A stretch of 64,000 nucleotides of DNA, taken from assembly GCF_001719165.1 (NCBI RefSeq), contig NZ_CP017057.1:1488001-1552000 (forward strand). The letters are read 5' to 3'. Under the pieces are notes generated by a model that was given only the letters and a program-made list of their open reading frames with translations, was not told the origin of the DNA and searched no databases. Source of the stretch: Erythrobacter litoralis (lineage in GTDB: Bacteria > Pseudomonadota > Alphaproteobacteria > Sphingomonadales > Sphingomonadaceae). The translations under genes and the position numbers were made by a program. Shown in pieces: positions 2,313 to 22,761 of the stretch (within the stretch, counting starts at the first letter, position 1; each line of letters opens with the position of its first letter).

Positions 2313-2314
2313 TC

Positions 2315-2337
2315 GCCGGGCCGCGCGCGCGCCCGGC
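2315..2337 (+). terminator. GC-rich hairpin after the ligase/decarboxylase pair
   Basis: Arms GCCGGGC (2315-2321) and GCCCGGC (2331-2337) pair perfectly across a 9-nt CG loop, three bases after the decarboxylase stop. There is no clear T-tract, so it is only a possible terminator. The rest of the 219-base gap to the export gene shows no gene and no promoter that I find convincing. Confidence 0.35.
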
Positions 2338-2531
2338 CAGGCCGTTCGTTAACCTGTCGAATTGCCCTGTCCCAAGGCGGGATGGGGTCTCGATTGAGGG
2401 CTTATTCCTAACACTCTCTTCACCATTTTCGGGCAGAGGCGAAGTCCATGTTCGCCGGGCCGTGCGTGGGCAGGTCGCTCCTGCCCGGAGCCGACCGGCC
2501 AGGCGGACCCTTGGCCCGAGGACAGGTATCG

Positions 2532-3197
2532 ATGCTCAATCCGCCGCTTTTCCGTTTTCCGACCGCTCGCCTCGCAGCGCAGATCATGGCAGCCGTGCTG
2601 GTGCCGATCGGCCTTGCCGGCTGCGCTGCCGGAGGACCGGAACTGCCGCCAGCTACCTACGGAGCCGCGCCCGAGCAGCCTTCGGAGGAATACCGCATCG
2701 GCCCGCTCGACGACATCACGATCCATGTCTGGCGCAACCCGGAACTGAGCGCGGAGAAGGTCAAGGTCCGCCCCGACGGGCGGCTGACCATCCCGCTTGT
2801 CCAGGACATCCCGGCGGTCGGCAAGACCGCAACGGAACTGCAGGACTACATCGCGGGCGAGCTTGCCCAGTATATCGAGCAACCGATCGTTTCGGTCATC
2901 GTCAACACGCCCGGCGGGACCTACGATCAGCGCGTGCGCGTGGTCGGCTCGACCGAACAGCCCGCCTCGCTGCCGTATCAGGCCAACATGACCGTGCTTG
3001 ACGCGATGATCGCGGTCGGCGGGCTTGGCGAATTTGCAAGCGGCAACCGTGCCAAGCTGATCCGGCTCGACCGCGAAAGCGGCACGCAGAAGGAATACCG
3101 CCTGCGCCTCGCTGACCTTCTGAAGCGCGGGGATGCGAGCGCCAATGTGATGCTTTCGCCCGGCGACACGATCATCATTCCCGAAAGCCGCTTCTAG
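2532..3197 (+). CDS. XrtA-type polysaccharide export lipoprotein (Wza-like)
   Basis: 221-aa outer-membrane export protein. The start ATG at 2532 is preceded by AGGACAGG; longer upstream starts would place the lipobox too far inside. Signal peptide with lipobox GLAGC (Cys about residue 33). Then comes the polysaccharide biosynthesis/export domain, starting YRIGPLDDITIHVWRNPELS and containing VRPDGRLTIPLV. An SLBB-like segment follows (RVRVVGSTEQPASLPY). Family: PEP-CTERM/XrtA export protein (TIGR03027, from memory). It should form the outer-membrane exit channel for the exopolysaccharide and opens a run of co-oriented genes to 14671. Confidence 0.92.
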   Translation: MLNPPLFRFPTARLAAQIMAAVLVPIGLAGCAAGGPELPPATYGAAPEQPSEEYRIGPLDDITIHVWRNPELSAEKVKVRPDGRLTIPLVQDIPAVGKTATELQDYIAGELAQYIEQPIVSVIVNTPGGTYDQRVRVVGSTEQPASLPYQANMTVLDAMIAVGGLGEFASGNRAKLIRLDRESGTQKEYRLRLADLLKRGDASANVMLSPGDTIIIPESRF

Positions 3198-3212
3198 GGG
3201 CGCGCGGCACGG

Positions 3213-4736
3213 ATGGACGAACTCTTCGATGAAGTGCGCGCGGCGCTCTGGTCGGTCTGGCACCGGCGCTGGATCGCGATCGCGGTCGCGTGGGGGGTGT
3301 GCCTCCTCGGCTGGCTGGTGGTCGCGCTGATCCCCAATTCCTACGAATCCAAGGCGCGCATCTATGTCGATGTGGAAGATGTCCTGTCCGAACAGCTCGG
3401 CATTGCGGGCGACGGGCGAGAGGAAATCCTGCGCGTGCGCCAGACGCTGGCGAGCAACGTCAATCTCGAACGGGTGATCAAGGGGACGCGTCTGGGCGAG
3501 GGGATTTCGACTCGCGGCGAGATGGACAATGCGATCGCCGACCTTGCCAAGCAGGTCGCGGTCCAAAGCGAGGAGGACAATCTCTTCGCGATCACCGCTA
3601 CGGTCGGCAAAAGCGACCTGTCCGATGCTGAGAACGCGGTGCTGGCGCGCAATGTGGTGCAGAAACTGCTCGACATCTTCCGGGAGGAGCACATCGCCGG
3701 AAACCGTGCGGGTATCGACCAGGCGCTGGCCGAACTCGATTCCCAGCTCGAAGAGCGCAAGACCGAGCTCGAAGCGGCCGAGGAGCGTCGCCTGTCCTTC
3801 GAGGCGCAGTATCCCGATCTCATCGGTGGCTCGCAGACGCTTTCGAGCAAGGTCCAGCAGGCCCGCACCGAATTGCGCGATGTCGATGCCGACCTCGCCG
3901 CCGCGCAGAGCGCATTGGCCGCGATCGAGGGCCAGGTTTCGGGCACGCCGCGCACCATCATCAGCCCCGGCGGGGCGACGGGTCCGCGCGGCGCGCTGAT
4001 GCAGGCGCAGGCCCAGCTCGCCGAATTGCGCTCGCGCGGGCTTACCAACGTTCACCCGGACGTTATCGCGACGAAGCGTCAGGTCGATCTGCTGGCGAAA
4101 CAGGCAGCAGCGGCTGGACCCGAGGATGCCGGCGGCACGCCGAACCCTGCCTACACATCGCTCATCGCGATCCGCGCGGACCGGCAGGCGGCGGTGGAAT
4201 CGCTCCAGGCGCGGCGTGCGGCGCTGCAATCGACACTGGCCTCGCTGATGGCGAGCCAGGCGAGCGAGCCTGCGATCGCCGCCGAAGCGAACCGGATCAG
4301 CCGCGACTACGACGTGCTGCGCAGGAATTACGAGGATCTGCTCCAGAACCGCGAGGAGATCAGGACCCGCGGCCACGTTGTGGACGAGACGAGCCAGTAC
4401 AAGTTCAACCTGATCGACCCGCCGGTCGTCCCGCAAAAGCCCGCTGCGCCCAATCGGCCGGTCCTTTTGCTTGGCGTGCTGGTCGTGGGTCTTGGCGCGG
4501 GTGCGGGCGTCGCGTGGGGACTGGGCCAGCTGCGTTCGGGTTTCGCGACGCCGCAGAAGCTCGAACGCGCTTTCGACCTCCCCGTGATCGGTGCGATTTC
4601 CCTGACGCTGTCGGATGCGGCGAAGGCGCTGGAGCGGCGGCGGCTGAAACAGTTCGCGGGGGCCTGTGCGGGGCTGGGCGCGGTATTCGTGATCCTGCTC
4701 GCGATCGAGGTCGTCTCGGTCGGGACGGTGGCATGA
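3213..4736 (+). CDS. XrtA system polysaccharide chain-length determinant
   Basis: 507-aa Wzz/GumC-type polysaccharide co-polymerase. It has an N-terminal membrane segment (about residues 20-42, IAIAVAWGVCLLGWLVVALI) with the Wzz signature region just after it, then a long periplasmic coiled coil (about residues 150-390, rich in AELDSQLEERKTELEAAEER-type heptads). A second membrane segment lies near 415-435 and a last hydrophobic segment at the extreme C-terminus. The FNLIDPPVVPQKPAAPNRP motif before TM2 is typical. It has no kinase domain of its own; that is the next gene. Starts 15 bases after the export gene. Matches TIGR03007 by memory. Controls polymer length at the inner membrane. Confidence 0.92.
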   Translation: MDELFDEVRAALWSVWHRRWIAIAVAWGVCLLGWLVVALIPNSYESKARIYVDVEDVLSEQLGIAGDGREEILRVRQTLASNVNLERVIKGTRLGEGISTRGEMDNAIADLAKQVAVQSEEDNLFAITATVGKSDLSDAENAVLARNVVQKLLDIFREEHIAGNRAGIDQALAELDSQLEERKTELEAAEERRLSFEAQYPDLIGGSQTLSSKVQQARTELRDVDADLAAAQSALAAIEGQVSGTPRTIISPGGATGPRGALMQAQAQLAELRSRGLTNVHPDVIATKRQVDLLAKQAAAAGPEDAGGTPNPAYTSLIAIRADRQAAVESLQARRAALQSTLASLMASQASEPAIAAEANRISRDYDVLRRNYEDLLQNREEIRTRGHVVDETSQYKFNLIDPPVVPQKPAAPNRPVLLLGVLVVGLGAGAGVAWGLGQLRSGFATPQKLERAFDLPVIGAISLTLSDAAKALERRRLKQFAGACAGLGAVFVILLAIEVVSVGTVA

Positions 4737-4746
4737 GGAGCGGATC

Positions 4747-5712
4747 ATGACCAAGCACAGCAGGATCACACCCGCAGGCGAACCCGGAAAGAAGCGCCCT
4801 TCGCTGCTTGAGCGGGCCGAGGAAACCTTCGGGAAAGGCCGTCTTGGCCCGGCCGGCGTGCCCGCGGACCTGCCCGAACCGCCGCGCCGGGGGCCCCGGC
4901 CAGCGCCGAGTGCACCCGCAAGCCCGGGAAAGGCGCTGGTTCCGACCACGCCCGAGCAGCGCGAACAGGCCCGTATCGGGCTCGCCGGGCCGTACCAGAC
5001 GATCGACCGGGCGCGGCTCCGTGCCGAAGGCCTGATCGTACCCGAGGACCCGGTCACCGGGCAGCTCGAGGAATTCCGCATCGTCAAGCGCGAGCTGCTC
5101 GTCGAGGCGCGCGCGGGCGCGGCCGGTCCGCTCTCCCGGCGCATCCTCGTCTGCTCGCCGCATCCCGGCGAGGGCAAGACCTACATCGCAACCAATCTCG
5201 CGATCGCCATGGCTGCCGAGCGCGATATCGAGGTCGTGCTGGTCGATGCCGACGTGGTGAAACCCTCGGTCACGCGGCGGCTCGGCATCGCCGGCGGGGC
5301 GGGATTGATGGACACGCTCGCCGATCCTTCGATCGAGCCCGAAAGCTGCGTCATCCGAACCGATATCGAGGGGCTCTTCGTGCTTCCCGCAGGCAATGCC
5401 AGCGTGCGCGATGCCGAATATCTCTCGAGCGCCCGGACCGGCGTGGTGCTGGAGCGGCTGACCCGCGGAGCACCGAACCGCATCCTGATCTTCGACACGC
5501 CTCCCGCGCTCGCCGCATCCCCCGCGGCCGAGCTTGCCGGCCATGTCGGACAGGCGATGCTGGTGGTGCGCGCCGACGAGACGAGCCGCGCCGCGCTCGA
5601 GGACGCGCAGCAATTGCTGTCGGCCTGCGCCGATATCAAGCTCCTCCTCAACGCCGCGCGCTACAGCCCTTCGGGCCGTCGTTTCGGCGATTACGGCCTG
5701 GCAAAGGGCTAG
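4747..5712 (+). CDS. XrtA-associated tyrosine autokinase-like ATPase
   Basis: 321-aa BY-kinase/ParA-like ATPase. The first 120 residues are proline-rich and low in complexity, then EFRIVKRELL leads into Walker A SPHPGEGKTYIATNLAIAM (about residues 137-155), Walker A' VVLVDADVVKPSV and Walker B-like ILIFDTPPAL. Tyrosines near the C-terminus (RYSPSGRRFGDYG) could be autophosphorylation sites, though there are only two, fewer than in the Tyr clusters of Wzc or CpsD. Pairs with the chain-length protein ten bases upstream to regulate polymerisation (TIGR03018 family, from memory). Confidence 0.9.
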   Translation: MTKHSRITPAGEPGKKRPSLLERAEETFGKGRLGPAGVPADLPEPPRRGPRPAPSAPASPGKALVPTTPEQREQARIGLAGPYQTIDRARLRAEGLIVPEDPVTGQLEEFRIVKRELLVEARAGAAGPLSRRILVCSPHPGEGKTYIATNLAIAMAAERDIEVVLVDADVVKPSVTRRLGIAGGAGLMDTLADPSIEPESCVIRTDIEGLFVLPAGNASVRDAEYLSSARTGVVLERLTRGAPNRILIFDTPPALAASPAAELAGHVGQAMLVVRADETSRAALEDAQQLLSACADIKLLLNAARYSPSGRRFGDYGLAKG

Positions 5713-5716
5713 GTCG

Positions 5717-7360
5717 ATGCGTTTCGCGCTCCTTGCTCTTGCGGCCCTTGTCGGCCTTGCTGCCTCGGTCCCGGCCCATGCCCAGGACCGGCGGGGGGAC
5801 AATGCGTTCGGCACCGGAGGTGGCAATGGCGACGGTCGCACCGTCATCCAGCCCTATATCGAGGTGAGCCAGGTCCTCTCCGCCGAGCTGACACCGGGCG
5901 ACGACGTGCTCACCTTCACCCAGTTGGCCGCCGGGGTCGATGCCAACACGCAGGGTCGCAATTCCGGGGCCTCGGTTTCGCTGCGCTACGAACGCAACAT
6001 CGCCTGGGGCGACGACCAGGTCGACACCGACACGCTGAGCGGGGTGGCGCGAGGCTATCTTTCCGTGGTCCCCCGCGCGCTTACGTTCGAAGCGGGCGGC
6101 CTTGCGAGCCGCACCCGGCTCGATGGTGGCGGCGGTGTCTCCAGCAACCCGCTGGTCCGCGAGGATGCGGAAAGCCAGATCTATTCGATCTATGCCGGGC
6201 CGACGCTGGCCACCAATGTCGGGCGGGTCGCGGTCAATGGCTTTGCGCGGTTCGGCTACAATCGCTTCGAGACCGAGAACGCGGCATTCGATCCCGCCGG
6301 AAACGCGGTCGACGTGTTCGATGACAGTGTGACCTATAACGGGCGGGTCACTGCCTCGACCCGATCTGGCGACCCGTTCCCGGTCGGTCTCGCCGTCACC
6401 GGCGGGATCTTTCAGGAAGAGATCTCCAATCTCGACCAACGGGTGCGCGATGCGTTCGTGCGCGCCGACGTCACCGTTCCGGTCACGCCTTCGCTCGCGA
6501 TCGTGGGCGGGGTGGGCTATGAGGATGTCGAGATATCGAGCCGCGACGCGCTTCGCGATGCAAGCGGCGATCCCGTGATCGGAGCTGACGGGCGGCTCGT
6601 CACCGACAGTTCGGGGCCCCGCAGGATCGCCTTCGACGTCGACGGCCTGCTCTGGGATGTCGGCGTATTGTGGCGACCGAGCTCGCGCACCTCGCTCGAG
6701 GCGCGAGTGGGTGAACGTTACGATTCAACAACCTATTACGGTAATTTCACATATCAGCCGAACTCGCGCAGTGCGCTCAGCGTTGTCGCCTATGACGGGG
6801 TCAGCGGCTTTGGCGGTGTACTCAACAACGCTCTTGCGGGCCTGTCGAGCGATTTCACCGCGTTTCGCAATCCCGTCACCGGTGATTTCGGCGGCCTTGT
6901 CAGCGGGGGCGAAGGGGCGGGCCTTGTCGGCACGCTCGGTTCGGTGCGTTCGGCAGCGTTCCGCGGTCGCGGCGTTCGGGCGAGCTATCAGCGGCGCATC
7001 GGCCGGCTCGATGCGGCTATCGGCGCGGGCTATGACCGGCGCACCTTCATTGCCGCGGCCGGGACCCCGCTCGAAGCGGCGGACGGCCTGACCGACGAAA
7101 GCTATTACGTCACGGGCGCCCTGTCCCGCCAGATCGGCCAGCGCGCGATCATCACCGCGAATGCCTATGCCAACTGGTTCGAGAGCGCGAGCGTGGGCGG
7201 CGATGTCACCGCCTTCGGCGCCTCGGCCTCCTACAACCGATCGCTTACCCAGCGCCTGTCGGGACGCGCGGCGCTGGCGATCGATTACTTCGACAGCGAA
7301 TTCTCCGCCGAGGATTTCGCCTTTGCCACCGCGCTTATCGGCCTGCGCTACAACTTCTGA
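5717..7360 (+). CDS. XrtA-associated outer-membrane beta-barrel protein
   Basis: 547 aa with a clear signal peptide (MRFALLALAALVGLAASVPAHAQ, cleavage after AHA). The mature part has many alternating amphipathic strands and ends in a C-terminal aromatic strand ALIGLRYNF, as in outer-membrane porin-like barrels. Start chosen at ATG 5717, four bases after the previous stop. Corresponds to the uncharacterised PEP-CTERM system-associated barrel (TIGR03016, from memory). It may help move or anchor polysaccharide at the outer membrane, but its role is not proven in any organism I can name. Confidence 0.85.
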   Translation: MRFALLALAALVGLAASVPAHAQDRRGDNAFGTGGGNGDGRTVIQPYIEVSQVLSAELTPGDDVLTFTQLAAGVDANTQGRNSGASVSLRYERNIAWGDDQVDTDTLSGVARGYLSVVPRALTFEAGGLASRTRLDGGGGVSSNPLVREDAESQIYSIYAGPTLATNVGRVAVNGFARFGYNRFETENAAFDPAGNAVDVFDDSVTYNGRVTASTRSGDPFPVGLAVTGGIFQEEISNLDQRVRDAFVRADVTVPVTPSLAIVGGVGYEDVEISSRDALRDASGDPVIGADGRLVTDSSGPRRIAFDVDGLLWDVGVLWRPSSRTSLEARVGERYDSTTYYGNFTYQPNSRSALSVVAYDGVSGFGGVLNNALAGLSSDFTAFRNPVTGDFGGLVSGGEGAGLVGTLGSVRSAAFRGRGVRASYQRRIGRLDAAIGAGYDRRTFIAAAGTPLEAADGLTDESYYVTGALSRQIGQRAIITANAYANWFESASVGGDVTAFGASASYNRSLTQRLSGRAALAIDYFDSEFSAEDFAFATALIGLRYNF

Positions 7361-7377
7361 ATCAGGGGAGCCCAGAC

Positions 7378-8529
7378 ATGTACGAACAATTCTACGGCCT
7401 CAGTGCTCGCCCCTTCCAGCTCACGCCCGACCCGCAATTCTATTTCGAGAGCATCACGCACAAGAAGGCGATGAGCTATCTCGGCTACGGGATGAACCAG
7501 GGCGAGGGCTTCATCGTCGTCACAGGCGAGGTCGGGGCGGGCAAGTCGACGCTGGTGGCGCACCTGATGGAGCGGATCGACCGCGAGGCGCTGACGGTCG
7601 CGCAGATCGTCACTTCGGCGCTCGACGGGGAGGAAGTGGTCCATGTCGTCGCGCAGGCTTTCGGCCTGTCGGTCGAAGGGCATGACAAGGCATCGGCGCT
7701 GGGTGCGATCGAGCGTTTCCTCCAGGACGAGGCGCGCGCCGGTCGCCGTTGCCTGCTGGTGGTCGATGAATGCCAGAATCTCGAACTCGACGCGCTCGAG
7801 GAACTGCGCATGTTGTCCAATTTCCAGCTCGGCTCGCACCCGCTTCTCCAGAGCCTGCTGCTGGGCCAGCCCGAATTCCGCCGCACGCTTGCGCATCACC
7901 CGGGCCTCGACCAGCTGCGCCAGCGGATCATCGCCTCGCATCATCTCGAAGCGCTGGGAGAGGACGAGATCGAGGCCTACGTCACCCACCGGCTCGGCCA
8001 GGTCGGCTGGGACGGGCGCCCCGTTCTGGGCGAAGTGCTGGCCAGCGCGCTCCACCTTGCGAGCGAGGGGATCCCGCGGCGCATCAATCAAATCATGAAC
8101 CGGCTCCTGCTGCTCGGCGCGATCGAGGAGGAGGAGGTGCTCACCCCTGCCATGCTCGAAGCGGTGGTCGAGGAGATGGCAGGCGACGAGGCGCAGGGCG
8201 CGAAAGCGCCGGAACCGAATACCGCCGCCCGACCTGCCGAAATTGCGGTCGGCGAAGAGGGGGGGGCGGCAGGCGAAGTCGCTGCGCTTCTGGCAGAGCG
8301 CGATGCGCGCACTTCCGAACTTGAATCGGCTATCCGCGAATTGCAGGCGGCGGGTTCTGCCCTGCACGGGGATGGTGCCTCCATGGACGCCGCCGCCGCG
8401 GATCCGGCATTGGCCGAGACGATCCGCAAGCTGGAAGCGCGGCTCGAGGAGCAGGAGCAATCGCTCCGTCACGTTCTCACCATGCTGATCGAATGGCTCG
8501 AGGACGACATCGCGCGGGAGGCGGCCTGA
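7378..8529 (+). CDS. XrtA-associated AAA ATPase (ExeA/GspA-like)
   Basis: 383-aa ATPase starting MYEQFYGLSARPFQLTPDP, the usual opening of the ExeA-like family. Walker A is TGEVGAGKST (residues 49-58), Walker B LLVVDECQNL, then an arginine-finger helical domain (GIPRRINQIMNRLLLLGAIE). The last 110 residues are alanine/glutamate-rich and end in a coiled coil (IRKLEARLEEQEQSLRHV). Family TIGR03015 (from memory). Lies between the barrel and deacetylase genes and is followed immediately by a GTG start, so translation is probably coupled. The function in the locus is unknown; it may energise assembly of the export machinery. Confidence 0.9.
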   Translation: MYEQFYGLSARPFQLTPDPQFYFESITHKKAMSYLGYGMNQGEGFIVVTGEVGAGKSTLVAHLMERIDREALTVAQIVTSALDGEEVVHVVAQAFGLSVEGHDKASALGAIERFLQDEARAGRRCLLVVDECQNLELDALEELRMLSNFQLGSHPLLQSLLLGQPEFRRTLAHHPGLDQLRQRIIASHHLEALGEDEIEAYVTHRLGQVGWDGRPVLGEVLASALHLASEGIPRRINQIMNRLLLLGAIEEEEVLTPAMLEAVVEEMAGDEAQGAKAPEPNTAARPAEIAVGEEGGAAGEVAALLAERDARTSELESAIRELQAAGSALHGDGASMDAAAADPALAETIRKLEARLEEQEQSLRHVLTMLIEWLEDDIAREAA

Positions 8530-8531
8530 CC

Positions 8532-9446
8532 GTGGGGCAGGCGCCCGATCCTGAGGCACCGCTCGTCAACGGCCTGTCGGTCGATGTGGAGGAGTGGTTC
8601 CAGGTCGGCGCGTTCGAGCGCGTGATCGACCGCGCCGATTGGGCGGGCATGGCAAGCCGGGTCGAAGACAATGTCGACTTCCTTCTCGACCTGTTCGCCG
8701 AAGCGAGGGTAAGGGCAACCTTCTTCACCCTGGGCTGGGTCGCCGAGCGGCACCCTGCTCTGATGCGGCGCATCGCCGGGGGCGGGCACGAAATCGCCAG
8801 CCACGGATACGACCATGCGCGCGTCTTCACTCTTTCGCGACGGATCTTCGCGCAGGACATCGCGAAAGCGCGCTGCCTGATCGAGGACGCATCGGGCGCG
8901 CGCGTGTCGGGCTACCGGGCGCCGAGCTTCTCGATCGATGCGCGCACGCCCTGGGCTTTCGAGGAACTGGCGGCACAGGGCTATGCCTATTCCTCCAGCG
9001 TCGCGCCGGTCGCGCACGATCATTACGGCTGGCCCGAAGCGCCGCGTTTCGCGTTCCGCCCGGTCGCGGGCTCGCCGCTCGTCGAATTGCCCGTCACCAC
9101 GGCCATGCTCGGTCAGCGCCGGGTGGCGGCAGGCGGTGGCGGGTTCTTTCGCGTGCTCCCCTATTCGTTCTCGCGCTGGGCGATCGGGCAGGTCAACGCG
9201 CGGGAGCGCCGCCCTGCAGTGTTCTATTTCCACCCCTGGGAAGTCGATCCGGACCAGCCGCGCATGGACCATGCGCCGCTGCGCTCGCGGTTGAGGCATT
9301 ATACCGGGCTAGAGTCGATGGCGGGCAAGCTGCGCAAATTGCTCGGCGATTTCGAGTGGGGGCGGGTGGATGCTCTGGCGGCGCGCGAGGCGCATCGTGC
9401 GCAGGCCTTCGCTCCGCGATCGCTGCCGCAAAGCGAGGCCGCATGA
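8532..9446 (+). CDS. XrtA-associated polysaccharide deacetylase (NodB domain + DUF3473)
   Basis: 304-aa carbohydrate esterase 4 protein. The start is a GTG two bases after the preceding stop; it gives an N-terminus close to LSVDVEEWFQVGAF, the catalytic-Asp motif. The metal-binding motif HEIASHGYDH and the RAPSFSID motif follow, then the C-terminal DUF3473-type motif HPWEVDPDQPRM. No signal peptide, as usual for this family (TIGR03006, from memory). It should N- or O-deacetylate sugars of the repeat unit in the cytoplasm or on the lipid-linked precursor. Overlaps the FemAB gene by 4 bases. Confidence 0.92.
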   Translation: MGQAPDPEAPLVNGLSVDVEEWFQVGAFERVIDRADWAGMASRVEDNVDFLLDLFAEARVRATFFTLGWVAERHPALMRRIAGGGHEIASHGYDHARVFTLSRRIFAQDIAKARCLIEDASGARVSGYRAPSFSIDARTPWAFEELAAQGYAYSSSVAPVAHDHYGWPEAPRFAFRPVAGSPLVELPVTTAMLGQRRVAAGGGGFFRVLPYSFSRWAIGQVNARERRPAVFYFHPWEVDPDQPRMDHAPLRSRLRHYTGLESMAGKLRKLLGDFEWGRVDALAAREAHRAQAFAPRSLPQSEAA

Positions 9447-10510
9447 ACGCGCCCGTTCGCCTCACGCAATCGGTGCGCGCGGTCGACCTGCACGATGCCG
9501 GCGAAGCCCGCCGGATCGAGGGTTTCGTGCGCGAACACGGCGCGAGCCTGTTCCACCGCCCTGCCTGGCTGCTTGGTGTGGAGGCGGGGACCGGGCAACG
9601 CGCGGCGGGCTTCGTGGCCGAGCGCATGGGAACGATCACTGGCTGGCTCCCGCTCACGGAGGCGCGCTCGGCGCTGTTCGGAAAAGCGCTGGTTTCGAGC
9701 GGTTTCGGCGTGGGCGGCGGCATCTGCACCGGGGACGCAGACGCAATTATCTGCCTTGCCGAAGCGGCCGAGCGCCATGCTGCGGCGCGCGGTTTCGGCT
9801 CGGTGGAACTGCGCGGCGGTGTGATTCCCGAACGGCCAGGCTGGAGGCAATGGAGCGACAGGCATTGCGGCTTCGAGCGCCGATTGGCCGAAGATGACGA
9901 GTCCGAGCTTCTGGCCATTCCGCGCAAGGCCCGCGCCGAGGTGCGCAAGGGCATCGCCAACGCATTGCGGGTCCATGTCGGGCGAGAGCGACGCGATCTC
10001 GCGGCGCATTACGCGGTCTATTCGCAGAGCGTGCGCAATCTCGGCACGCCGGTTTTTCCCAAGAAGCTCTTCGCCGCCATGCTCGCAGCCTTCCCGCGCG
10101 AAAGCGACATTCTCACCGTTTACGCAGGCGGCACGCCGATCGCGAGCGTTCTGTCCTTCTATCACGCGGGCGCGGTGATGCCTTTCTGGGGCGGCGGCAC
10201 TTTCGCCGCGCGGAGCAGACGGGCGAACGAACTCATGTACTACGAACTCATGCTCCATGCTCGAAAGCGGGGCATGGAACGGTTCGATTTCGGCCGGTCA
10301 AAGACCGGAAGCGGCCCGTTCCGGTTCAAGAAGAACTGGGGCTTCACGCCCGAACCGCTGACCTATGGCGCATGGGATGCACCGGGCGAGGCCGCGCGCG
10401 ATGTCGACCCGACGAGCGCGGCCCATGCCCGCAGGATCGCGCTGTGGAAGAAGCTGCCGCTGCCCGTCGCCAACCTCATCGGACCGCCCATCGCGCGCGG
10501 CCTTGCCTGA
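9443..10510 (+). CDS. XrtA-associated FemAB-like acyltransferase (GNAT fold)
   Basis: 355-aa protein of the FemAB/peptidoglycan-interpeptide-bridge superfamily. The C-terminal half carries the conserved GNAT-like run AGGTPIASVLSFYHAGAVMP, then RANELMYYELMLHARKRGME and FDFGRSKTGSGPFRFKKNWG. ATG at 9443 overlaps the deacetylase stop (ATGA). Family TIGR03019 (from memory). Enzymes of this type transfer an aminoacyl or acyl group; in XrtA loci the acceptor is presumably the polysaccharide or its lipid carrier, which the neighbouring deacetylase could expose as a free amine. The donor is not known. Confidence 0.9.
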   Translation: MNAPVRLTQSVRAVDLHDAGEARRIEGFVREHGASLFHRPAWLLGVEAGTGQRAAGFVAERMGTITGWLPLTEARSALFGKALVSSGFGVGGGICTGDADAIICLAEAAERHAAARGFGSVELRGGVIPERPGWRQWSDRHCGFERRLAEDDESELLAIPRKARAEVRKGIANALRVHVGRERRDLAAHYAVYSQSVRNLGTPVFPKKLFAAMLAAFPRESDILTVYAGGTPIASVLSFYHAGAVMPFWGGGTFAARSRRANELMYYELMLHARKRGMERFDFGRSKTGSGPFRFKKNWGFTPEPLTYGAWDAPGEAARDVDPTSAAHARRIALWKKLPLPVANLIGPPIARGLA

Positions 10511-10529
10511 GCCAGCGGTGGAGGGCCGA

Positions 10530-11756
10530 ATGGGCGATATCCTGTTCCTGGCGCACCGCGTCCCGTTCCCGCCCGACCGGGGGGACAAGATCCGCTCACA
10601 CCACCTGCTGCGTACACTCGCGCGATTGTCAAATGTCCATGTCGGCACGCTTGCGGAAAGCGCCGCAGACCGTGCGGGCGAAGCCGACCTTTCCCGCATC
10701 GCGGCGAGCCATTTCGTCGCGCCGCGCGTCAAGCCGCTCGCGCTTGCCGGAGCAGAAGCGGTGCTCGCGCGCAAACCCGTCAGCCTTGCCGCGTTCCACT
10801 GTGCCGCGCTCGAACGCTGGGTGCGCATGACCATCGAGACGCGCGAGATCGAAACGATCGTCGTCTTCTCCGGCCAGATGGGGCAATATGTCCCGGAGCG
10901 CTTTGCCGGCCGCGTTGTCATCGATCTGTGCGATGTCGACAGCGCCAAGTTCGCGGCATACGCCGATGCAGGCCAGCGAGTCTGGCTCAACCGCCGCGAA
11001 GCCCGCCTGCTCGCCCGCGAGGAAGAACGGCTCGCAGGCCGGGCCGATGCGACGATCCTGATCAGCGAAGCTGAGGCGAACCTGCTGCGCGCCCGGCTGC
11101 CCGCCCGCCTCGCGGAAAGGGTGCGCGTGATCGGCAATGGCATTGATGCGGCCCGCTTCGATCCTGCCGCCAGCGCGCCGCATCAGGCCCTTGCCGCGCG
11201 CAAGGGTCCGCAATTCGTCTTCACCGGGCAGATGGATTACTGGCCCAACGAGAAAGCCGCGATCTGGGCTGCGCGTGAACTGCTGCCCGCTTTGCGGCGA
11301 CGGCTGCCGAGTGCTGAACTCCACATCGTGGGACGCAGCCCGACCCGATCGGTCGAGGCGCTGGGCGCGCGAGCGGGCACGAGCGTGTGGGGCGAGGTGC
11401 CCGACATGCGCCCCTTCATCGCGGCTGCGGACATGGTGCTCGCCCCGCTCGATATCGCGCGCGGGGTGCAGAACAAGGTGCTCGAGGCGATGGCGATGGC
11501 GCGGCCGATCCTGCTCTCGCCCGCCGCCGCGGCGGGGATCGACGCGCGCGACGGCGAAGAATGGCTGGTTTGCGAGCGAGAGCCCGGGGCGATGGCCGCC
11601 GCCGCCGCTTGCCTGCTTGCCGATCCGGCGCGCGCTGCGGCCATGGGAGCGGCGGCACGGCGCTTCGTGCTCGACCGCCATGGCTGGGATGCTTTGCTCG
11701 AGCCGCTCGGGACGATCCTTGCGGCAGATCCTGCACAGGCGCGCCATGCAGCCTGA
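10530..11756 (+). CDS. XrtA/PEP-CTERM-associated glycosyltransferase (GT-B, GT4-like)
   Basis: 408-aa GT-B glycosyltransferase. Starts MGDILFLAHRVPFPPDRGDKI behind a GGAGGG ribosome site. The N-terminal Rossmann domain carries SHHLLRTLARLSNVHVGTL. The C-terminal nucleotide-sugar domain has FTGQMDYWPNEKAA and then APLDIARGVQNKVLEAMAMA, the EX7E-like retaining region. Matches the TIGR03087 family from memory. Probably adds one sugar of the repeat unit on the cytoplasmic face. Its last 11 bases overlap the start of the exosortase gene in another frame. Confidence 0.92.
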   Translation: MGDILFLAHRVPFPPDRGDKIRSHHLLRTLARLSNVHVGTLAESAADRAGEADLSRIAASHFVAPRVKPLALAGAEAVLARKPVSLAAFHCAALERWVRMTIETREIETIVVFSGQMGQYVPERFAGRVVIDLCDVDSAKFAAYADAGQRVWLNRREARLLAREEERLAGRADATILISEAEANLLRARLPARLAERVRVIGNGIDAARFDPAASAPHQALAARKGPQFVFTGQMDYWPNEKAAIWAARELLPALRRRLPSAELHIVGRSPTRSVEALGARAGTSVWGEVPDMRPFIAAADMVLAPLDIARGVQNKVLEAMAMARPILLSPAAAAGIDARDGEEWLVCEREPGAMAAAAACLLADPARAAAMGAAARRFVLDRHGWDALLEPLGTILAADPAQARHAA

Positions 11757-12759
11757 GCCGAGGTCTTCGCGCGCGCCCGCCATCGGGCAGGCGCTTGGCG
11801 CGATGTGGCGCGAACCACTCATCCGGCTTGCCCTCGCGAGCGCGGCGCTGATCGCCGCGAGCGCGAGGGAATGGGGCGAGATGCTCCACCAATGGTGGAA
11901 TATCGACACCTACAACCACATCGTCCTGATGCCCGCGATCCTGGTCTGGCTCGTCTGGATGAAGCGCGAGGAACTGGCGCAGGTTGAACCGCGCGAATGG
12001 GCTCCGGGTCTGGCGCTGGTTGCGGGCGCGCTCGGGCTTTGGGTCGCGGGGCGCTTTACCGGGATCAACCTGCTCGCCCATGCCGGGGCAGTTGGCGCGG
12101 TGCAGGGGGCGGTGGTGGCGCTGCTCGGGGCGAGGGTTGCCGCGCTGCTCGCTTTGCCGCTCTGTTTCGCGGTTTTTCTCGTGCCATTCGGCGACGAACT
12201 CATCCCCCCTCTGCAATTCGTCACCGCCGAGATCGCCGCCGCTCTCACCAGGCTTGGCGGCATTCCAGCACAGATCGACGGCATTTATATCCAGACGCCC
12301 GTCGCGCTGTTCATCGTCGCCGAGGCCTGTTCGGGGGTTAAGTTCCTCGCCGCCATGACTGCGCTCGCGGTGCTGGTGTGCTTCACCCGTTTCGCAAGCT
12401 GGAAGCTGCGCGCCGCTTTCATGGTTGCAGCGATCCTCGTCCCGATCCTCGCCAACGGGGTGCGGGCATGGGGGACGATCCTCGTCGCCCAAAGCTGGGG
12501 GGTCGAGTTCGCGCAGGGGTTCGATCACATCGTCTATGGCTGGGTGTTCTTCGCGCTGGTCGTCGCCCTTCTGCTCGGTATCGCCTGGCGCTTCTTCGAG
12601 CGCGAACCGGAAGATCATGGCTGGCGCGCCGCCGATCTCGCCGGTTCCGCCTACCTCGCGCGCAGCGAAAGTGGCGAATCAGCTTCTCGCGGCATGTTCA
12701 TCGCCATTCTTGCCCTGTCGCTCGTCGCCGCGATTGTGGCCTTTGCGACGATGGTCTAG
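11746..12759 (+). CDS. xrtA: Exosortase A (XrtA), without an EpsI domain
   Basis: 337-aa integral membrane cysteine protease/transpeptidase. The catalytic triad is visible: Cys195 in VAEACSGVKFLAAM, Arg240 in NGVRAWG and His261 in GFDHIVYGWVFF. About eight hydrophobic segments. Exosortases recognise C-terminal PEP-CTERM signals, cut them and are thought to link surface proteins to the polysaccharide. Many XrtA proteins of this clade continue after a last transmembrane helix into an EpsI (DUF3485) domain; here the protein stops right after that helix (residues 317-337) and no separate EpsI gene follows. No PEP-CTERM substrate was recognised in this window. Start ATG 11746 overlaps the glycosyltransferase. 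Confidence 0.93.
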   Translation: MQPEPRSSRAPAIGQALGAMWREPLIRLALASAALIAASAREWGEMLHQWWNIDTYNHIVLMPAILVWLVWMKREELAQVEPREWAPGLALVAGALGLWVAGRFTGINLLAHAGAVGAVQGAVVALLGARVAALLALPLCFAVFLVPFGDELIPPLQFVTAEIAAALTRLGGIPAQIDGIYIQTPVALFIVAEACSGVKFLAAMTALAVLVCFTRFASWKLRAAFMVAAILVPILANGVRAWGTILVAQSWGVEFAQGFDHIVYGWVFFALVVALLLGIAWRFFEREPEDHGWRAADLAGSAYLARSESGESASRGMFIAILALSLVAAIVAFATMV

Positions 12760-12772
12760 CGCCAGACCGCTC

Positions 12773-14671
12773 ATGTGCGGGATCGCCGGAATCTTCCATG
12801 CCGAAACGCCCAAGCCGGTCGATCCCGTCCGGGTCGAACGCATGTGCGAGGCGCTGGTCCATCGCGGACCGGACGGTTCGGGCGTGTGGACCGGGCCCGG
12901 CGTCGGGCTGGGCCATCGCCGGCTTTCGGTTATCGACCTCGAAGGCTCGCCCCAGCCGATGCATTCGGCCGACGGGCGCTCGGTCATCGTTTTCAACGGC
13001 GAGATCTACAATTTCCGCGAACTGCGCGGCGAACTCGAAGCCGCCGGCGCGCGGTTTCGAACCTCAGGCGATACCGAGGTGATCCTCGCGGCCTATGATC
13101 GCTGGGGGGTGGACTGTCTCGATCGGCTCGACGGCATGTTCGCTTTCGCGCTTTACGATAGGGACAAGCGCGCTCTTTTTCTCGCGCGGGACCGGTTCGG
13201 GGTAAAGCCGCTTTTCCTGGCGCAGCTTTCAGACGGGAGCCTCGCTTTCGCTTCGGAACTGAAAGGCCTCCTTGCCCATCCGCTGCTGCGTCGCCGGGTG
13301 AGCCCGCAGTCGCTCGATGCCTATCTCGCCTGGGGCTACGTGCCCGACAGCCACGCGATCCTGTCCGGCACGAGCAAGCTGCCCGCAGGCCATTTCCTGT
13401 GGATCGAGCAGGGCAAGGGCGTTCCGCAGCCGCGCCGTTGGTGGGACATGGATTTCACGCAGCGCGAAAAGGGCAGCGAAGCCGATCTTTCGGCGCAGCT
13501 TCTCCACCTGATGCGGGACGCGGTGCAATCGCGCATGGTCGCCGACGTGCCGCTGGGCGCGTTCCTGTCGGGCGGGGTCGACAGCTCCTCCGTCGTCGCC
13601 CTGATGAGCGAGGCGAGCGCCGCGCCGGTGCGCACCTGCTCGATCGGTTTCGACGTCGCAGCGCTTGACGAGACGAGCCACGCCGAGACCGTGGCAAGGA
13701 CCTTCGGGACGCTCCACACAGCGCGCCGGGTCGGGCATGACGATTTCGCGGCCGTGGATGGCCTTGCGGCGATGTTCGATGAGCCTTTCGCCGATGCCTC
13801 GGCGCTTCCGACATGGCGGGTGTGCCAGATCGCACGGGAACAGGTGACGGTCGCGCTGTCTGGCGACGGGGCGGACGAGGCGTTTGCGGGTTATCGAAGG
13901 CAGGTGTTCCATCGCAATGAGGAGCGCGTGCGTGCGCTGCTTCCGGGCGGGGTTCGCGAGCATTTGTTCGGGAGGCTCGGTACGCTCTGGCCCAAGGCGG
14001 ACTGGGCCCCGCGTCCGTTGCGCGCGAAGGCGACCCTGCTGGCGCTCGCGGGAAGCGGCGAGGAGGGTTATGCGCACGGCCTTTCCGTGACCACGCCGGA
14101 GCAGCGCGCAGCGCTTTATTCGGATGAATTCGCACGCGGGCTCGCGGGATACCGGGCCGAGGACGAGCTTGTTGCCCTGATGCGCTCGGCACCTGCGCGA
14201 GGCGGGCTCGACCGGGCGCAGTATGCCGACCTCGCCTTCTGGCTGCCCGGCGGTATCCTGACCAAGGTCGACCGCACCAGCATGGCGGTGAGCCTCGAGG
14301 CGCGCGAGCCTTTGCTCGACCATCGCCTCGTCCAATTTGCCGCGCGCCTGCCCGATAGGATGCGGGTGAGGGGCGGCACGGGCAAATATCTGCTCAAGAG
14401 GTGCATGGAGCGCTACCTGCCGCAAGACATCCTCTACCGGCCCAAGCAGGGCTTCGTCACGCCGATCGCCGAATGGCTGCGCGGCCCTCTTGCCGGAGAA
14501 GCGCGCGCGATCGCGGCAAGTCCGGTGATCGCGCAGAGCGGCTTTTTCGAGCCCCGTGCGCTCGCGAGGCTGGCCGAGGCGCATATTGCCGGGCGCAGCG
14601 ACAATTCGCGCGTCCTTTGGCAATTGCTGATGCTCGAGAAGTCGCTCACCCGACTAGGCATTTCTTCCTGA
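12773..14671 (+). CDS. XrtA-associated asparagine synthase-like amidotransferase
   Basis: 632-aa class II glutamine amidotransferase fused to an asparagine-synthase domain. The N-terminal nucleophile Cys2 is in MCGIAGIFHAE and is followed by HRGPDGSG and FNGEIYNFRELR. The PP-loop LSGGVDSSSVVALM lies at about residue 264, and the C-terminal domain has LDHRLVQFAARLP. Family TIGR03108 (from memory), the amidotransferase that closes many XrtA/EPS operons. It probably amidates a uronic acid or another carboxylate in the polysaccharide. The start keeps Cys at position 2, which the mechanism requires. Confidence 0.93.
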   Translation: MCGIAGIFHAETPKPVDPVRVERMCEALVHRGPDGSGVWTGPGVGLGHRRLSVIDLEGSPQPMHSADGRSVIVFNGEIYNFRELRGELEAAGARFRTSGDTEVILAAYDRWGVDCLDRLDGMFAFALYDRDKRALFLARDRFGVKPLFLAQLSDGSLAFASELKGLLAHPLLRRRVSPQSLDAYLAWGYVPDSHAILSGTSKLPAGHFLWIEQGKGVPQPRRWWDMDFTQREKGSEADLSAQLLHLMRDAVQSRMVADVPLGAFLSGGVDSSSVVALMSEASAAPVRTCSIGFDVAALDETSHAETVARTFGTLHTARRVGHDDFAAVDGLAAMFDEPFADASALPTWRVCQIAREQVTVALSGDGADEAFAGYRRQVFHRNEERVRALLPGGVREHLFGRLGTLWPKADWAPRPLRAKATLLALAGSGEEGYAHGLSVTTPEQRAALYSDEFARGLAGYRAEDELVALMRSAPARGGLDRAQYADLAFWLPGGILTKVDRTSMAVSLEAREPLLDHRLVQFAARLPDRMRVRGGTGKYLLKRCMERYLPQDILYRPKQGFVTPIAEWLRGPLAGEARAIAASPVIAQSGFFEPRALARLAEAHIAGRSDNSRVLWQLLMLEKSLTRLGISS

Positions 14672-19172: not shown

Positions 19173-20198
19173 TCAATCGAGCTTGATCAGCCCGTGCCGC
19201 GCCAGCGCCTCGGCGAGGATTGTCTCGATCAGCTCTTTCTGCGACCAGCCCGCCATCTGCGCCGCCCTGCCAAACACCTTCTGTGACCACAGATTGCAGT
19301 TGAGATTGAGTTCGAGGAAATTCACCTCGCCCGTCGCCTCGTTCACCCGGAATTCGAAGCGACCGTAGTCGAACGGCCGGTATTCCTCCCAGACCTTCCG
19401 CGTCATCTCGGCGATACGAGCGGTCAGCGTCTCGTCCTCGAACGGATCGAGCGAATATTTCTGACTGCGATCAACGAGGTCGCGCTTCTCGTAATAGGTC
19501 CGCAGATGGGAGGGATCGGCCTGGCGGAAGATCAGCATCGGAAGGATCTGCGGCTCGCCGCGAACCGTGACGACCGGCACCTCGACATCGGAGCCTTCGA
19601 GAAACGGCTCGACGATCGCGTCCTGTCCGCCATTCGCGGGATCGGAGTGGATGCGGTGCACGGCCTCTTCGACGCCGGGCCAGTCATGCGCATCGGCGAC
19701 GCCCCAGCTAGCCGAGGAATTGTTCGGCTTGATCACGTAACGCACGGCCTGCGGACACTTGTCGCGCGTCACCGGGGCGCCCTTGCGATAGACAGCCCAT
19801 GGCGCTGTCGGAACGCCCGCGACCTCGGCGGCCCGCTTGGCGAAATGCTTGTCATCCGATGTGCCGCGCAGGATCGGGTTCGCGCCGAGATAGGGAAGGG
19901 CCGCACGCTCGCACAGCAGCGGCAGCAGCATTTCCGAATTGAAGAAGCCCGCACGGTTGAGCAGCGGAAAGACGAAATCGACACCCTTGGGCGGATCGAA
20001 CAGGACTTCGTGGGTCTGAGCGATTTCGAGCTTGAGGCCGAGCGATTGCAGCACCTCGCGCATTTGGCGATGATAGACCGCGTGATTGCCGTCCTCGGGA
20101 TGGATGTCGCCCTCCCACAGCGCGTTCTTGGCAACGAACAGGACAGTCAGCCTGTCCTTCGCTTCGGACGGAATCGCGAGCGGGGAGAGTTTGGGCAA
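19173..20198 (-). CDS. D-Ala-D-Ala ligase-like ATP-grasp enzyme (paralogue A)
   Basis: 341-aa ATP-grasp ligase if started at the TTG at 20198. That start gives 15 residues before [10 protein letters not shown], matching the 16 residues before RVRLLYMAKH in paralogue B; a longer version would overlap the divergent PLP gene. Visible elements are [45 protein letters not shown], the ATP-binding lysine in [28 protein letters not shown], and the metal ligands in [13 protein letters not shown]. The chemistry expected is ATP-dependent joining of a carboxylate to an amine. Both true Ddl function (cell wall) and a role in a dedicated small-molecule pathway are possible; the paired paralogue and PLP gene favour the latter. 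Confidence 0.85.
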
Positions 20199-20238
20199 TT
20201 CTGTGCGACCTGTGCTTATGGAAATGTCCCTGTCGCAT

Positions 20239-20256
20239 AATTCTGCTAGGGCAAGG
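20239..20256. promoter_or_regulatory. Motif shared with the upstream region of paralogue B
   Basis: AATTCTGCTAGGGCAAGG, in the 86-base divergent gap between ATP-grasp A and the PLP gene. It shares the ungapped core CTAGGGnAAGG, and AATTCT with a 3-base gap, with 22827-22841 in front of ATP-grasp B. In both cases it lies about 50-70 bases before the ligase start. It may be a common promoter element or operator. Confidence 0.35.
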
Positions 20257-20284
20257 TTCCAAGCCGAAAGAGGGCAATCGCCTC

Positions 20285-21748
20285 GTGGTCGCACGATTTC
20301 CTGACATTGACCCCGCTTATGAGGGGCGCGAGGGGGTTGCGGAGCTTGTCGCGCTGCTGTGTTCAGGGGGCGATGCGCGAATCGCGCTCGATCCTGAAAC
20401 GGGCCTCAATCGGTATCTGGCTGCGCCCTATCCGCGCCGGACGCTCGCGCTGGCTTCCTCGACCGCCAACGACATCTCGCCCGCAGCCTTCGATCATCTG
20501 CTCGCCGTGAAGTCGGCGGGGCAGGCTTCGCATGCCGAGCATCTCGATGCACTCAGGCAGAGGATCATTGCGGCCTACAGCCTCGACCGCGACACGGGGA
20601 TCATCTTCGCGCCCTCGGGGACCGACTGTGAATTCATCGCCCTCGCTGCGGTGCAGGGTCGGGCGAAAAGCGGGGTGCACAACATCCTGCTCGGAGCGGA
20701 CGAAGTGGGCAGCGGATGCGTCCATTCCGCGCGCGGCTGCCATTTCGCCGACAGCACCGCTCTCGGCCATGCGACCGAGGCGGGAGAACCGGTTGCGGGG
20801 ATGGACGCGGTGACGCTGTGCGACGTGCCGGTTCGCTGCGCGCACGGCGAGGCGCGCAGCAGCAGCGAGATCGCGCAGGTCATCCGCGCTGAGATCGTCC
20901 ATGCGTGCGAGCAGGAGCAGCACGCTCTGCTGCATGTCGTCCACGGCTCTAAGACCGGGCTGATCCTGCCGCGCCTGCGCGAAATCGACGTTCTGATGGC
21001 CGAATTCGGTGACCATCTCAGCCTTGTCGTCGATGCCTGCCAGGCCCGCATTACTTCCCAGGCCGTACGCGATTATCTCGCGCGCGGAGCGATCGTGCTG
21101 CTGACCGGATCGAAATTCATGGGCGGCCCGCCCTTTTCGGGCTTTGCCCTTGTCCCTGCTCGCCTGATCGAACAGGCCGCCCCGCTGCCGCGAGGCTTCG
21201 CCGGGCTGTTTCGCCGGGCCGAGTGGGACGCGCGCTGGCCGGGGCGCGACGGCCTCGAGCAGAGCGCCAATCCTGGTCTTGCCCTGCGGCTCGACGCGTC
21301 GATCTTCGAACTCGAAAGGTTCGAGGCGTTGGGGCACGAGGCTGCCCGGCGGGTGATCCTTGCCTTCCAGCGCGCGATCCGTGCCTTGCTTCTGCATCGC
21401 AACGGCTTTCGCCGGATCGAGCCCTACCGCAACGGCAATGCCGAGGAAGCGGCCGACCATCCGATCGAAATGCTCACCCTCGCAACGCTCGACGTGAGCG
21501 CGCATCCGCAGGCCGCCACATTCGAGGATGCGCGTGTCCTGCACCTTTCGCTCGAAGCGAAGGGCCTCAGGCTGGGGCAGCCTGTCAAATGCGTCCCGCG
21601 AGAGGACGGCAATTGGGCGGGGACGCTGCGGGCGGGGCTTTCGATGCCGCAGATCTGCGTGCTTGCCGAGCTGTCCGACCATGCTCTTGAAAGAGCGATG
21701 TTCGAACAGGTCGGACGCTTTGCGGATGCGCTCGCCGTTCCGGCCTAG
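20285..21748 (+). CDS. PLP-dependent fold-type-I enzyme of unknown function (aminotransferase class V-like)
   Basis: 487-aa protein. It reads as a fold-type-I PLP enzyme: an APSGTDCEFIAL phosphate-loop region, HVVHGSKTGLILP, Asp250 in LVVDACQARI to pair with the pyridine nitrogen, and the Schiff-base Lys277 in LLTGSKFMGGPPFSGF. The C-terminal domain (about 330-487) has no motif that I can name. Start is GTG 20285 with GAGGG about 11 bases upstream. It is divergent from ATP-grasp A and converges with ATP-grasp B, overlapping its stop by 4 bases. It might supply an unusual amino acid or amine to the two ligases, or be a lyase. I cannot assign a reaction. Confidence 0.8.
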   Translation: MVARFPDIDPAYEGREGVAELVALLCSGGDARIALDPETGLNRYLAAPYPRRTLALASSTANDISPAAFDHLLAVKSAGQASHAEHLDALRQRIIAAYSLDRDTGIIFAPSGTDCEFIALAAVQGRAKSGVHNILLGADEVGSGCVHSARGCHFADSTALGHATEAGEPVAGMDAVTLCDVPVRCAHGEARSSSEIAQVIRAEIVHACEQEQHALLHVVHGSKTGLILPRLREIDVLMAEFGDHLSLVVDACQARITSQAVRDYLARGAIVLLTGSKFMGGPPFSGFALVPARLIEQAAPLPRGFAGLFRRAEWDARWPGRDGLEQSANPGLALRLDASIFELERFEALGHEAARRVILAFQRAIRALLLHRNGFRRIEPYRNGNAEEAADHPIEMLTLATLDVSAHPQAATFEDARVLHLSLEAKGLRLGQPVKCVPREDGNWAGTLRAGLSMPQICVLAELSDHALERAMFEQVGRFADALAVPA

Positions 21749-22761
21749 CCCGCGATCAGCCCGTTCCTGCGCCAGCTTTCGGCGAGCAGGGTTTCAAGCA
21801 GGTCCGCATGGCTGAAACCGGCGCGCGCAGCGGCCTTGGCCATGACCTTTTCCGACCACAGATTGCAGTTCAGGTTGATTTCGATGAAATTGATGTCGCC
21901 GGTCTGAAGGTCGAGCCGGAATTCGATCCGGCCATAGTCGAACGGCACGAATTCGCGCGCAACGGCCTTTGCCATGTCGCCGATGCGCTCGGCGAAATCG
22001 GGATGTTCGAAGGTCTTGAGCGCGGCCTTCTCGGTGTTCTGGACGAGATCGCGCTTTTCGTAATAGGTCCACAGCCGCTGCGTGTCCTCTCGCTCGTACC
22101 ACAGCATGGGAAGCGCGGTGGGCGTATCATGCAGCGTGATGAAGGCGCACTGGATGTCGTAGCCGTCGAGATAGGGCTCGACGATCGCGTCGTGTCCCTG
22201 GCCGTGAATGTCGGCGACGGCGTTGGCGACACCGGCGAAGTCGAACGCATCGGAAATGCCCCAGCTCGCCGATGAGGCGTTGGGCTTGATCACCCAACGG
22301 CCCTTGGGGCTGGCGGGAAGGTCGGCCTCGCCCACGGGGGCGCCGCGGCGGTAGCAGAACCAGTCGGCGGTCGGCACGCCCGCATGGCGCGCGACGAGCT
22401 TGGAGACCGACTTGTCATCGCCCAGCCCGCGCAGGAAGGGCATCGCGCCGAGATAGGGGATGCGCTGCATGTTGCACAGCAGCGGCACCATCATCTCCGA
22501 ATTCACGAAGCCGCCGCGATTGAGCAGCGGGAACACGAAATCGGCAGGCGGGCGCGTGAAGAGGATGTCGTAGCTGGCGCCCAGCTGCAGGTTGAGCCCA
22601 AGCCCCTCGAGCGTCTGGCGCACCTCGTGGTGATAGATCGCGTGGTTGCCGTCTTCGGGATGCATCCCGCCGCCCCACTTGGCGTGCTTTGCCATGTATA
22701 GAAGGCGCACGCGCTCCTTGTCTTGTGCAGAGATGCGCAGCGGTTCGATTGAGTCGGTCAT
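21745..22761 (-). CDS. D-Ala-D-Ala ligase-like ATP-grasp enzyme (paralogue B)
   Basis: 338-aa paralogue of the gene at 19173, collinear over its whole length. Shared blocks are [96 protein letters not shown] and [15 protein letters not shown]. Lys of KPN and the E-x-N-x-N metal/phosphate ligands are kept, so it should be active. Differences cluster between residues 190 and 230, where the substrate loop would be, which suggests that the two paralogues act on different substrates. It converges on the PLP gene with overlapping stops. Confidence 0.85.
   Translation of the reverse strand: MTDSIEPLRISAQDKERVRLLYMAKHAKWGGGMHPEDGNHAIYHHEVRQTLEGLGLNLQLGASYDILFTRPPADFVFPLLNRGGFVNSEMMVPLLCNMQRIPYLGAMPFLRGLGDDKSVSKLVARHAGVPTADWFCYRRGAPVGEADLPASPKGRWVIKPNASSASWGISDAFDFAGVANAVADIHGQGHDAIVEPYLDGYDIQCAFITLHDTPTALPMLWYEREDTQRLWTYYEKRDLVQNTEKAALKTFEHPDFAERIGDMAKAVAREFVPFDYGRIEFRLDLQTGDINFIEINLNCNLWSEKVMAKAAARAGFSHADLLETLLAESWRRNGLIAG

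Follow-up and report, generated by a model that had tools for sequence, protein, structure and literature searches.

A candidate two-gene biosynthetic unit of a PLP enzyme and a Ddl-like ATP-grasp ligase in Erythrobacter litoralis and its relatives

The window analyzed here is a 64,000-nucleotide stretch of the Erythrobacter litoralis genome (NZ_CP017057.1, positions 1,488,001 to 1,552,000), and its genes of interest encode a pyridoxal 5'-phosphate (PLP) enzyme and two ATP-grasp ligases resembling D-alanine–D-alanine ligase (Ddl). The first ligase gene, lig1 (19173..20198, minus strand; 341 amino acids [aa]), begins with a TTG codon at 20198, set from the N termini of homologues, and its product matches PF07478 at 49.7 bits. 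A divergent gap of 86 bp (20199..20284) separates its start codon from that of the PLP gene (20285..21748, plus strand, GTG start), which encodes a 487-aa fold-type-I enzyme outside known family models. The second ligase gene, lig2 (21745..22761, minus strand, ATG start; 338 aa, 41.7 bits to PF07478), overlaps the PLP gene at the stops, with CTAG common to both, and the two ligases are 51% identical. The initial annotation had described two Ddl-like ligases on the minus strand around a plus-strand PLP gene; this is confirmed, and all three genes are real. We did not find the layout described in the open-licence PMC literature, and other literature may hold it.

Conservation was followed in 149 genomes of the taxonomic family (the genome sets used here sample larger groups evenly; genomes and fetched loci are cited by G and L numbers). 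The PLP gene is present in 24, and a lig1-type ligase lies divergently beside it in all 24, with the matched ends 64 to 227 bp apart; no genome among the 149 carries the PLP gene without a ligase. The ligase is matched in 59 genomes at E ≤ 1e-3 and in 54 of these with an E value below 1e-20; 30 ligase genomes have no PLP gene. The two earliest-branching clades of the ligase family (10 rows; supports 91/92 and 92/86, not starred) also lack it, and for this reason the PLP gene, on the branching order of the tree, probably joined an older ligase. One row of the tree, L046, was tagged as lacking the PLP gene from a wrong PLP start, and the match positions show that gene in divergent orientation. 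Gene calls in the fetched loci came from a codon-score script whose known wrong starts are this one and that of sdhB in the window. The loci themselves, 42 in number, were chosen by hand, and 37 gave a ligase.

Lig2 adjoins the PLP gene in just 4 of the 24 PLP genomes (the E. litoralis genome itself, G000, and G004, G098, and G104), and the three genes are also neighbors in E. sanguineus (L003). In the 50-row ligase tree the lig2-type rows form a single clade of 12 (support 100/100), 7 of which have no adjoining PLP gene. Of the conserved neighborhood that the initial annotation had proposed as a test, then, the PLP gene and lig1 do stay together, but the full set of three adjoins only in these five cases. 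We regard lig2 as probably a paralogue specialized for another acceptor and not a fixed part of the PLP/lig1 unit. In G104 (L080, 9371-10788) the PLP gene was matched in two overlapping pieces between lig1 and lig2, possibly reflecting decay or an assembly error, and in G103 and G108 the ligase or PLP matches carry one stop mark each.

Both ligases pass the PF07478 cut-off of 24 bits, which places them in the ATP-grasp superfamily, but against the NCBIfam Ddl model TIGR01205 they score 67.1 and 65.6 bits, some 180 below its cut-off of 245.65. A profile of 27 family ligases has Ddl structures as its best relatives in the PDB (3r23, E = 1.2e-16). E294, N296, and R278 (the last in lig2 numbering) are invariant in the 27 rows and align with the genome's own Ddl; the roles of the ATP/Mg, arginine, and loop residues we take to be those of Ddl. 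The motifs DGxHAxYH, PFDYGRxE, and CNLWSxK occur in 44 of 44 ligase family rows. The first Ddl signature (HGxxGE[DN]G...) is found in the genome's own Ddl and in none of the 44 family ligases or the 5 distant homologues compared; a second signature failed on the genome's own Ddl and was not used. That ddl gene lies in the division and cell wall (dcw) cluster at 2,467 kb on contig C1 of G000, flanked by murB-like and ftsQ-like genes, past which ftsA- and ftsZ-like genes follow (all by eye). Given this separate ddl and the different acceptor-site motif, lig1 and lig2 are, on sequence, ATP-grasp enzymes distantly related to Ddl and not Ddl; the score, the missing signature, and the separate gene all led us to reject that identity. 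The outcome that the initial annotation had foreseen as fatal, canonical Ddl ligases in a genome with no other ddl, is thus not what we found. Databases name members of this family either D-alanine--D-alanine ligase or phosphoribosylglycinamide synthetase, and a distinct Ddl-like family so far inconsistently named is now delimited. In L081 and L082 (G433 and G510), two divergent distant ligase homologues lie on either side of a 337-aa protein that looks secreted and may be a binding protein, with large membrane-type proteins beside it, perhaps a sensing system that uses ATP-grasp enzymes.

Searches with the PLP protein gave nothing in Pfam or NCBIfam at E ≤ 1 or among PDB sequences at E ≤ 10, and the genome's nine PF00266 matches do not include it. 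Structure prediction gives a NifS/AGT-like fold type I with matching large and small domains, and the best fold matches of the model, at 10 to 17% identity, include alanine:glyoxylate and aminoethylphosphonate aminotransferases. Sixteen diverse rows share SGTD (111-114), SK (222-223), DACQ (250-253), TGSKF (274-278), and R449 without variation. Among these invariant residues are the Schiff-base lysine K277 and the pyridine-binding D250, roles that are assigned by motif, as is the probable binding of a carboxylate by R449. Judged by these residues, the active site is intact. A cysteine desulfurase was rejected on the grounds that the catalytic cysteine of the C-terminal loop is not conserved: C437, the cysteine nearest the desulfurase position, is serine in several relatives, and the sole cysteine invariant in the 16 rows is C252 of DACQ. 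The family numbers at least 1,776 proteins at E ≤ 1e-3 among the best 7,999 candidates scored.

Beyond the taxonomic family, samples of 385 genomes from the class and 398 from the phylum yielded 23 genomes with PLP relatives. An ATP-grasp gene lies within 4 kb of the relative in 21 of the 23, as a raw count. The partner is RimK-like in 18 (by a weak profile match), a large tandem ATP-grasp protein in 2, and a sugar-transfer associated ATP-grasp protein (ATPgrasp_ST) in 1. A PF00282-type decarboxylase is present in 20 of the 23 (PF00282 itself was matched for one, the others being assigned by similarity), and in G225 it is fused to the RimK-like partner. A profile from 12 of the 18 RimK-like members has its best PDB match in 3vpd, a ribosomal protein S6 modification protein (E = 3e-5). 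Against the RimK model, with a cut-off of 143.4, one partner scores 23.4 bits and another has no match; four that were scanned had no ATP-grasp Pfam model above cut-off, and an hhalign comparison of a distant RimK-like partner with the Ddl-like ligases was not significant. One rhizobial relative of the RimK-like protein is annotated as a tetratricopeptide-repeat protein.

Several of these loci have features of their own. In L123 and L124 (G610 and G554), the PLP relative and decarboxylase adjoin tandem ATP-grasp proteins of 804 to 938 aa (PF01071 and others), the longer of which has a C-terminal acylphosphatase domain. In five loci from one genus (L038 and L115-L118, in G505, G623, G664, G827, and G866), the operon with the decarboxylase, the RimK-like partner, and the PLP relative lies, along with a 244- to 261-aa glycosyltransferase-like protein (by eye; one copy had no Pfam match), among flagellin-like and FlbT-like genes (by eye), a setting hinting at flagellar modification. 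On plasmids, 33 records match the PLP family, and seven rhizobial ones were read. One has a decarboxylase/repeat protein/PLP set, and in two the PLP relative directly follows a very large nonribosomal peptide synthetase (NRPS) gene (L132, Sinorhizobium medicae pSMED03; L135, Rhizobium jaguaris pRCCGE525a). These two plasmids, typed as conjugative, also have a phosphopantetheinyl transferase nearby.

Recurrent neighbors of the ligase in the 42 loci are a nucleoside triphosphate (NTP) transferase (PF12804) in 20, ATPgrasp_ST (PF14397) in 8, and a flippase-like protein in 5; cluster names come from Pfam scans of a few members (two NTP transferases, four ATPgrasp_ST, one flippase, and one decarboxylase). 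Across the 149 genomes, the transferase (≥280 bits, with matches of 130 to 235 bits excluded) and the ligase occur together in 53, the ligase alone in 1, the transferase alone in 5, and neither in 90; the two are within 4 kb of each other in 30 of the 53. The transferase is present in 23 of the 24 PLP genomes. The corresponding counts for flippase and ligase are 35 with both, 19 with the ligase only, 16 with the flippase only, and 79 with neither at ≥384 bits, or 25, 29, 4, and 91 at ≥480 bits. Flippase and transferase lie within 4 kb of each other in 24 genomes; the ligase is present in 22 of these, G000 among them, where the pair maps at C1:716-718 kb beside glycine-cleavage-like genes. ATPgrasp_ST was found in 11 of the 149 genomes (matches in 4 of these scoring only 168 to 220 bits), 10 with the ligase and 0 with the PLP gene; among the 54 ligase genomes, 10 have ATPgrasp_ST alone, 24 the PLP gene alone, 0 both, and 20 neither.

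From gene order, co-occurrence, family membership, predicted fold, and residue conservation, the features shown here, we infer a reaction, its direction, its substrates, and a surface destination, and we consider it somewhat probable that the PLP gene and lig1 are a two-gene unit making an amino-acid block that the ligase joins, for a surface-decoration pathway. The PLP enzyme, with its class-V-like fold type I, would make or edit the amino-acid building block. Lig1 would then couple the block with a carboxylate by way of an acyl phosphate, using the retained ATP/Mg residues and arginine of Ddl and an acceptor site swapped for the invariant CNLWSxK. The joined block may enter a pathway that also relies on a nucleotidyltransferase of the MobA-like type and, in many genomes, on a polysaccharide-type flippase, and so would most likely decorate a surface glycan or lipid. 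The strongest point is that one PLP family recurs beside amide-bond makers of different kinds, which fits the supply or editing of an amino-acid block. More tentatively, and with somewhat under even confidence, we suggest that the PLP family is a portable partner of amide-bond makers (at least four ATP-grasp families, and NRPSs twice) across Alphaproteobacteria and other Pseudomonadota, supplying one unusual amino-acid or amine block. In this taxonomic family it would have been added to an older ligase/NTP transferase/flippase surface pathway, competing with ATPgrasp_ST for the same slot. Of the amide-metabolite cassette first proposed for the locus, the PLP/ATP-grasp module is supported, by 24 of 24 divergent pairs and by the distant pairs, and the trio and the methyltransferase are not.

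A number of observations weigh against this interpretation. A mirror-distance test over 12 loci gave r = 0.74 for PLP versus lig1, 0.85 for lig1 versus rne, and 0.79 for PLP versus rne; the PLP–lig1 correlation is no higher than those with rne, which gives no hint of co-evolution over and above shared ancestry. The RimK-like assignment of the 18 distant partners rests on weak profile matches. In G478 neither an ATP-grasp gene nor a decarboxylase was recognized near the PLP relative (by similarity, annotation, or eye, as throughout for ATP-grasp genes), and G719 stops at a contig edge. One of the seven plasmids has a Neorhizobium PLP relative that follows a D-alanine aminotransferase and a D-aminopeptidase with no ligase annotated, and in three more no ATP-grasp or NRPS partner was recognized; such isolated relatives indicate that the partnership with amide-bond makers is not obligatory. 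The NTP transferase is within 4 kb of the ligase in only 10 of the 24 PLP genomes, G050 has the PLP gene and lig1 without such a transferase, and in G000 itself the transferase and flippase are unlinked to PLP/lig1. The bit-score cuts were chosen after the lists were seen, and the Fisher p values for co-occurrence (2.6e-33, 7.6e-9, and, one-sided, 0.0013) are descriptive and overstate independence because the genomes are related.

Other explanations differ chiefly in what they ask of the PLP enzyme. It could be an amino-acid racemase or epimerase supplying a D-amino acid to the Ddl-like ligase, much as CefD is a class-V-fold epimerase; Ddl enzymes are the nearest PDB sequences to the ligase, the Neorhizobium relative follows the aminotransferase and aminopeptidase genes noted above, and NRPS neighbors fit an unusual amino acid. 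We think this unlikely, since the ligase does not retain the Ddl subsite motifs and the majority of the distant relatives have a decarboxylase and a RimK-like ligase as partners, with no D-amino-acid gene recognized there by eye. About equally unlikely is a later step, with the PLP enzyme working as an aminotransferase or lyase on what the ligase has joined or, as when amino sugars are made, on a sugar. The aminotransferases among the best fold matches speak for it, as does the co-occurrence of NTP transferase and flippase with the ligase, but the fold does not fix the reaction, and linkage to NRPSs and decarboxylase operons points to amino-acid-sized substrates.

The initial annotation had also suggested that the trio is one cassette performing two successive couplings. 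Four PLP genomes and E. sanguineus do have that arrangement, but with all three genes neighbors in so few genomes and lig2 absent beside the PLP gene in 20 of the 24, both the trio and the two couplings are unsupported; we rejected the trio as a unit, lig2 being a separate clade that rarely adjoins the PLP gene and often does without it (7 of 12 rows), and rate this reading very improbable. Least probable of all is that the two ligases serve as spare or substitute Ddl enzymes, in peptidoglycan synthesis or D-cycloserine tolerance, with the PLP gene a chance neighbor: the PF07478 matches and the nearest solved relatives agree with it, but the genome's own ddl in dcw, scores of about 66 bits where Ddl needs 245.65, the missing signature, and adjacency to the PLP gene in 24 of 24 genomes speak against it.

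As for the surroundings of the locus, both flanks hold housekeeping genes. On one side are a zapE-like ATPase (by eye) and a thioesterase, sdhB, and a short-chain dehydrogenase (by Pfam/NCBIfam). The other has a methyltransferase (Pfam/NCBIfam) followed by rne, an amidase, and a penicillin-binding protein (by eye). The methyltransferase had been suggested as a finishing enzyme, but it belongs to the rne locus instead: it occurs in 11 of the 42 loci (L048 gave no genes in this count), 6 of the 11 are without the PLP gene, and rne is at the same locus every time, and so it was rejected as a pathway member. No sigma-70 promoter was predicted between 18300 and 23100, an uninformative outcome when 0.7 sites are expected by chance, and the promoter and terminator scan of that interval added nothing to the case. 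A PADLOC search of four proteins found no known defence system at E ≤ 0.01, and the PLP gene had no match in 50,697 phage records; on these results a known defence role and carriage of the PLP gene by phages were rejected. Upstream of sdhB, positions 1086-14671 of the window hold an exopolysaccharide-type cluster with polysaccharide chain-length-like and asparagine-synthase-like proteins (by eye).

A large PLP family with no Pfam or NCBIfam model thereby gains a testable role, the making or editing of blocks for ATP-grasp ligases or NRPSs, and the co-occurring NTP transferase and flippase point to where a product could be sought. The PLP enzyme shares with the class-V aminotransferase/NifS enzymes (PF00266) its predicted fold and the D-x-x-Q and S-K motifs, but it differs in having no PF00266 match, low identity to its fold matches, and no conserved desulfurase cysteine. 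Lig1 and lig2 resemble Ddl in their ATP-grasp fold, ATP/Mg residues, Y..K loop motif, and the arginine of the catalytic site; they lie outside the dcw cluster, however, and have no HG..GEDG motif, an N-terminal DGxHAxYH motif, CNL in place of the acceptor-site PGM, and an invariant lysine, K305, at the Ddl serine position. The sugar-transfer associated ATP-grasp proteins (PF14397) are a separate ATP-grasp family, never found with the PLP gene in the 149 genomes, that elsewhere adjoins the same ligase and NTP transferase, seemingly replacing the PLP gene. The methanofuran/methylofuran pathway (MfnA decarboxylase, MfnD ligase, and MyfA/MyfB ATP-grasp ligases) occurs in different contexts, and the sole sequence comparison, of one decarboxylase with the MfnA model, gave a weak match of 81.9 against 299.4 bits. 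By analogy alone, it resembles PLP/lig1 in joining PLP enzymes to amide ligases, and methylofuran synthesis, as described in PMC8141765, follows a comparable logic of PLP decarboxylase plus ATP-grasp ligases, near to what the distant relatives have in their decarboxylase/ATP-grasp/PLP operon.

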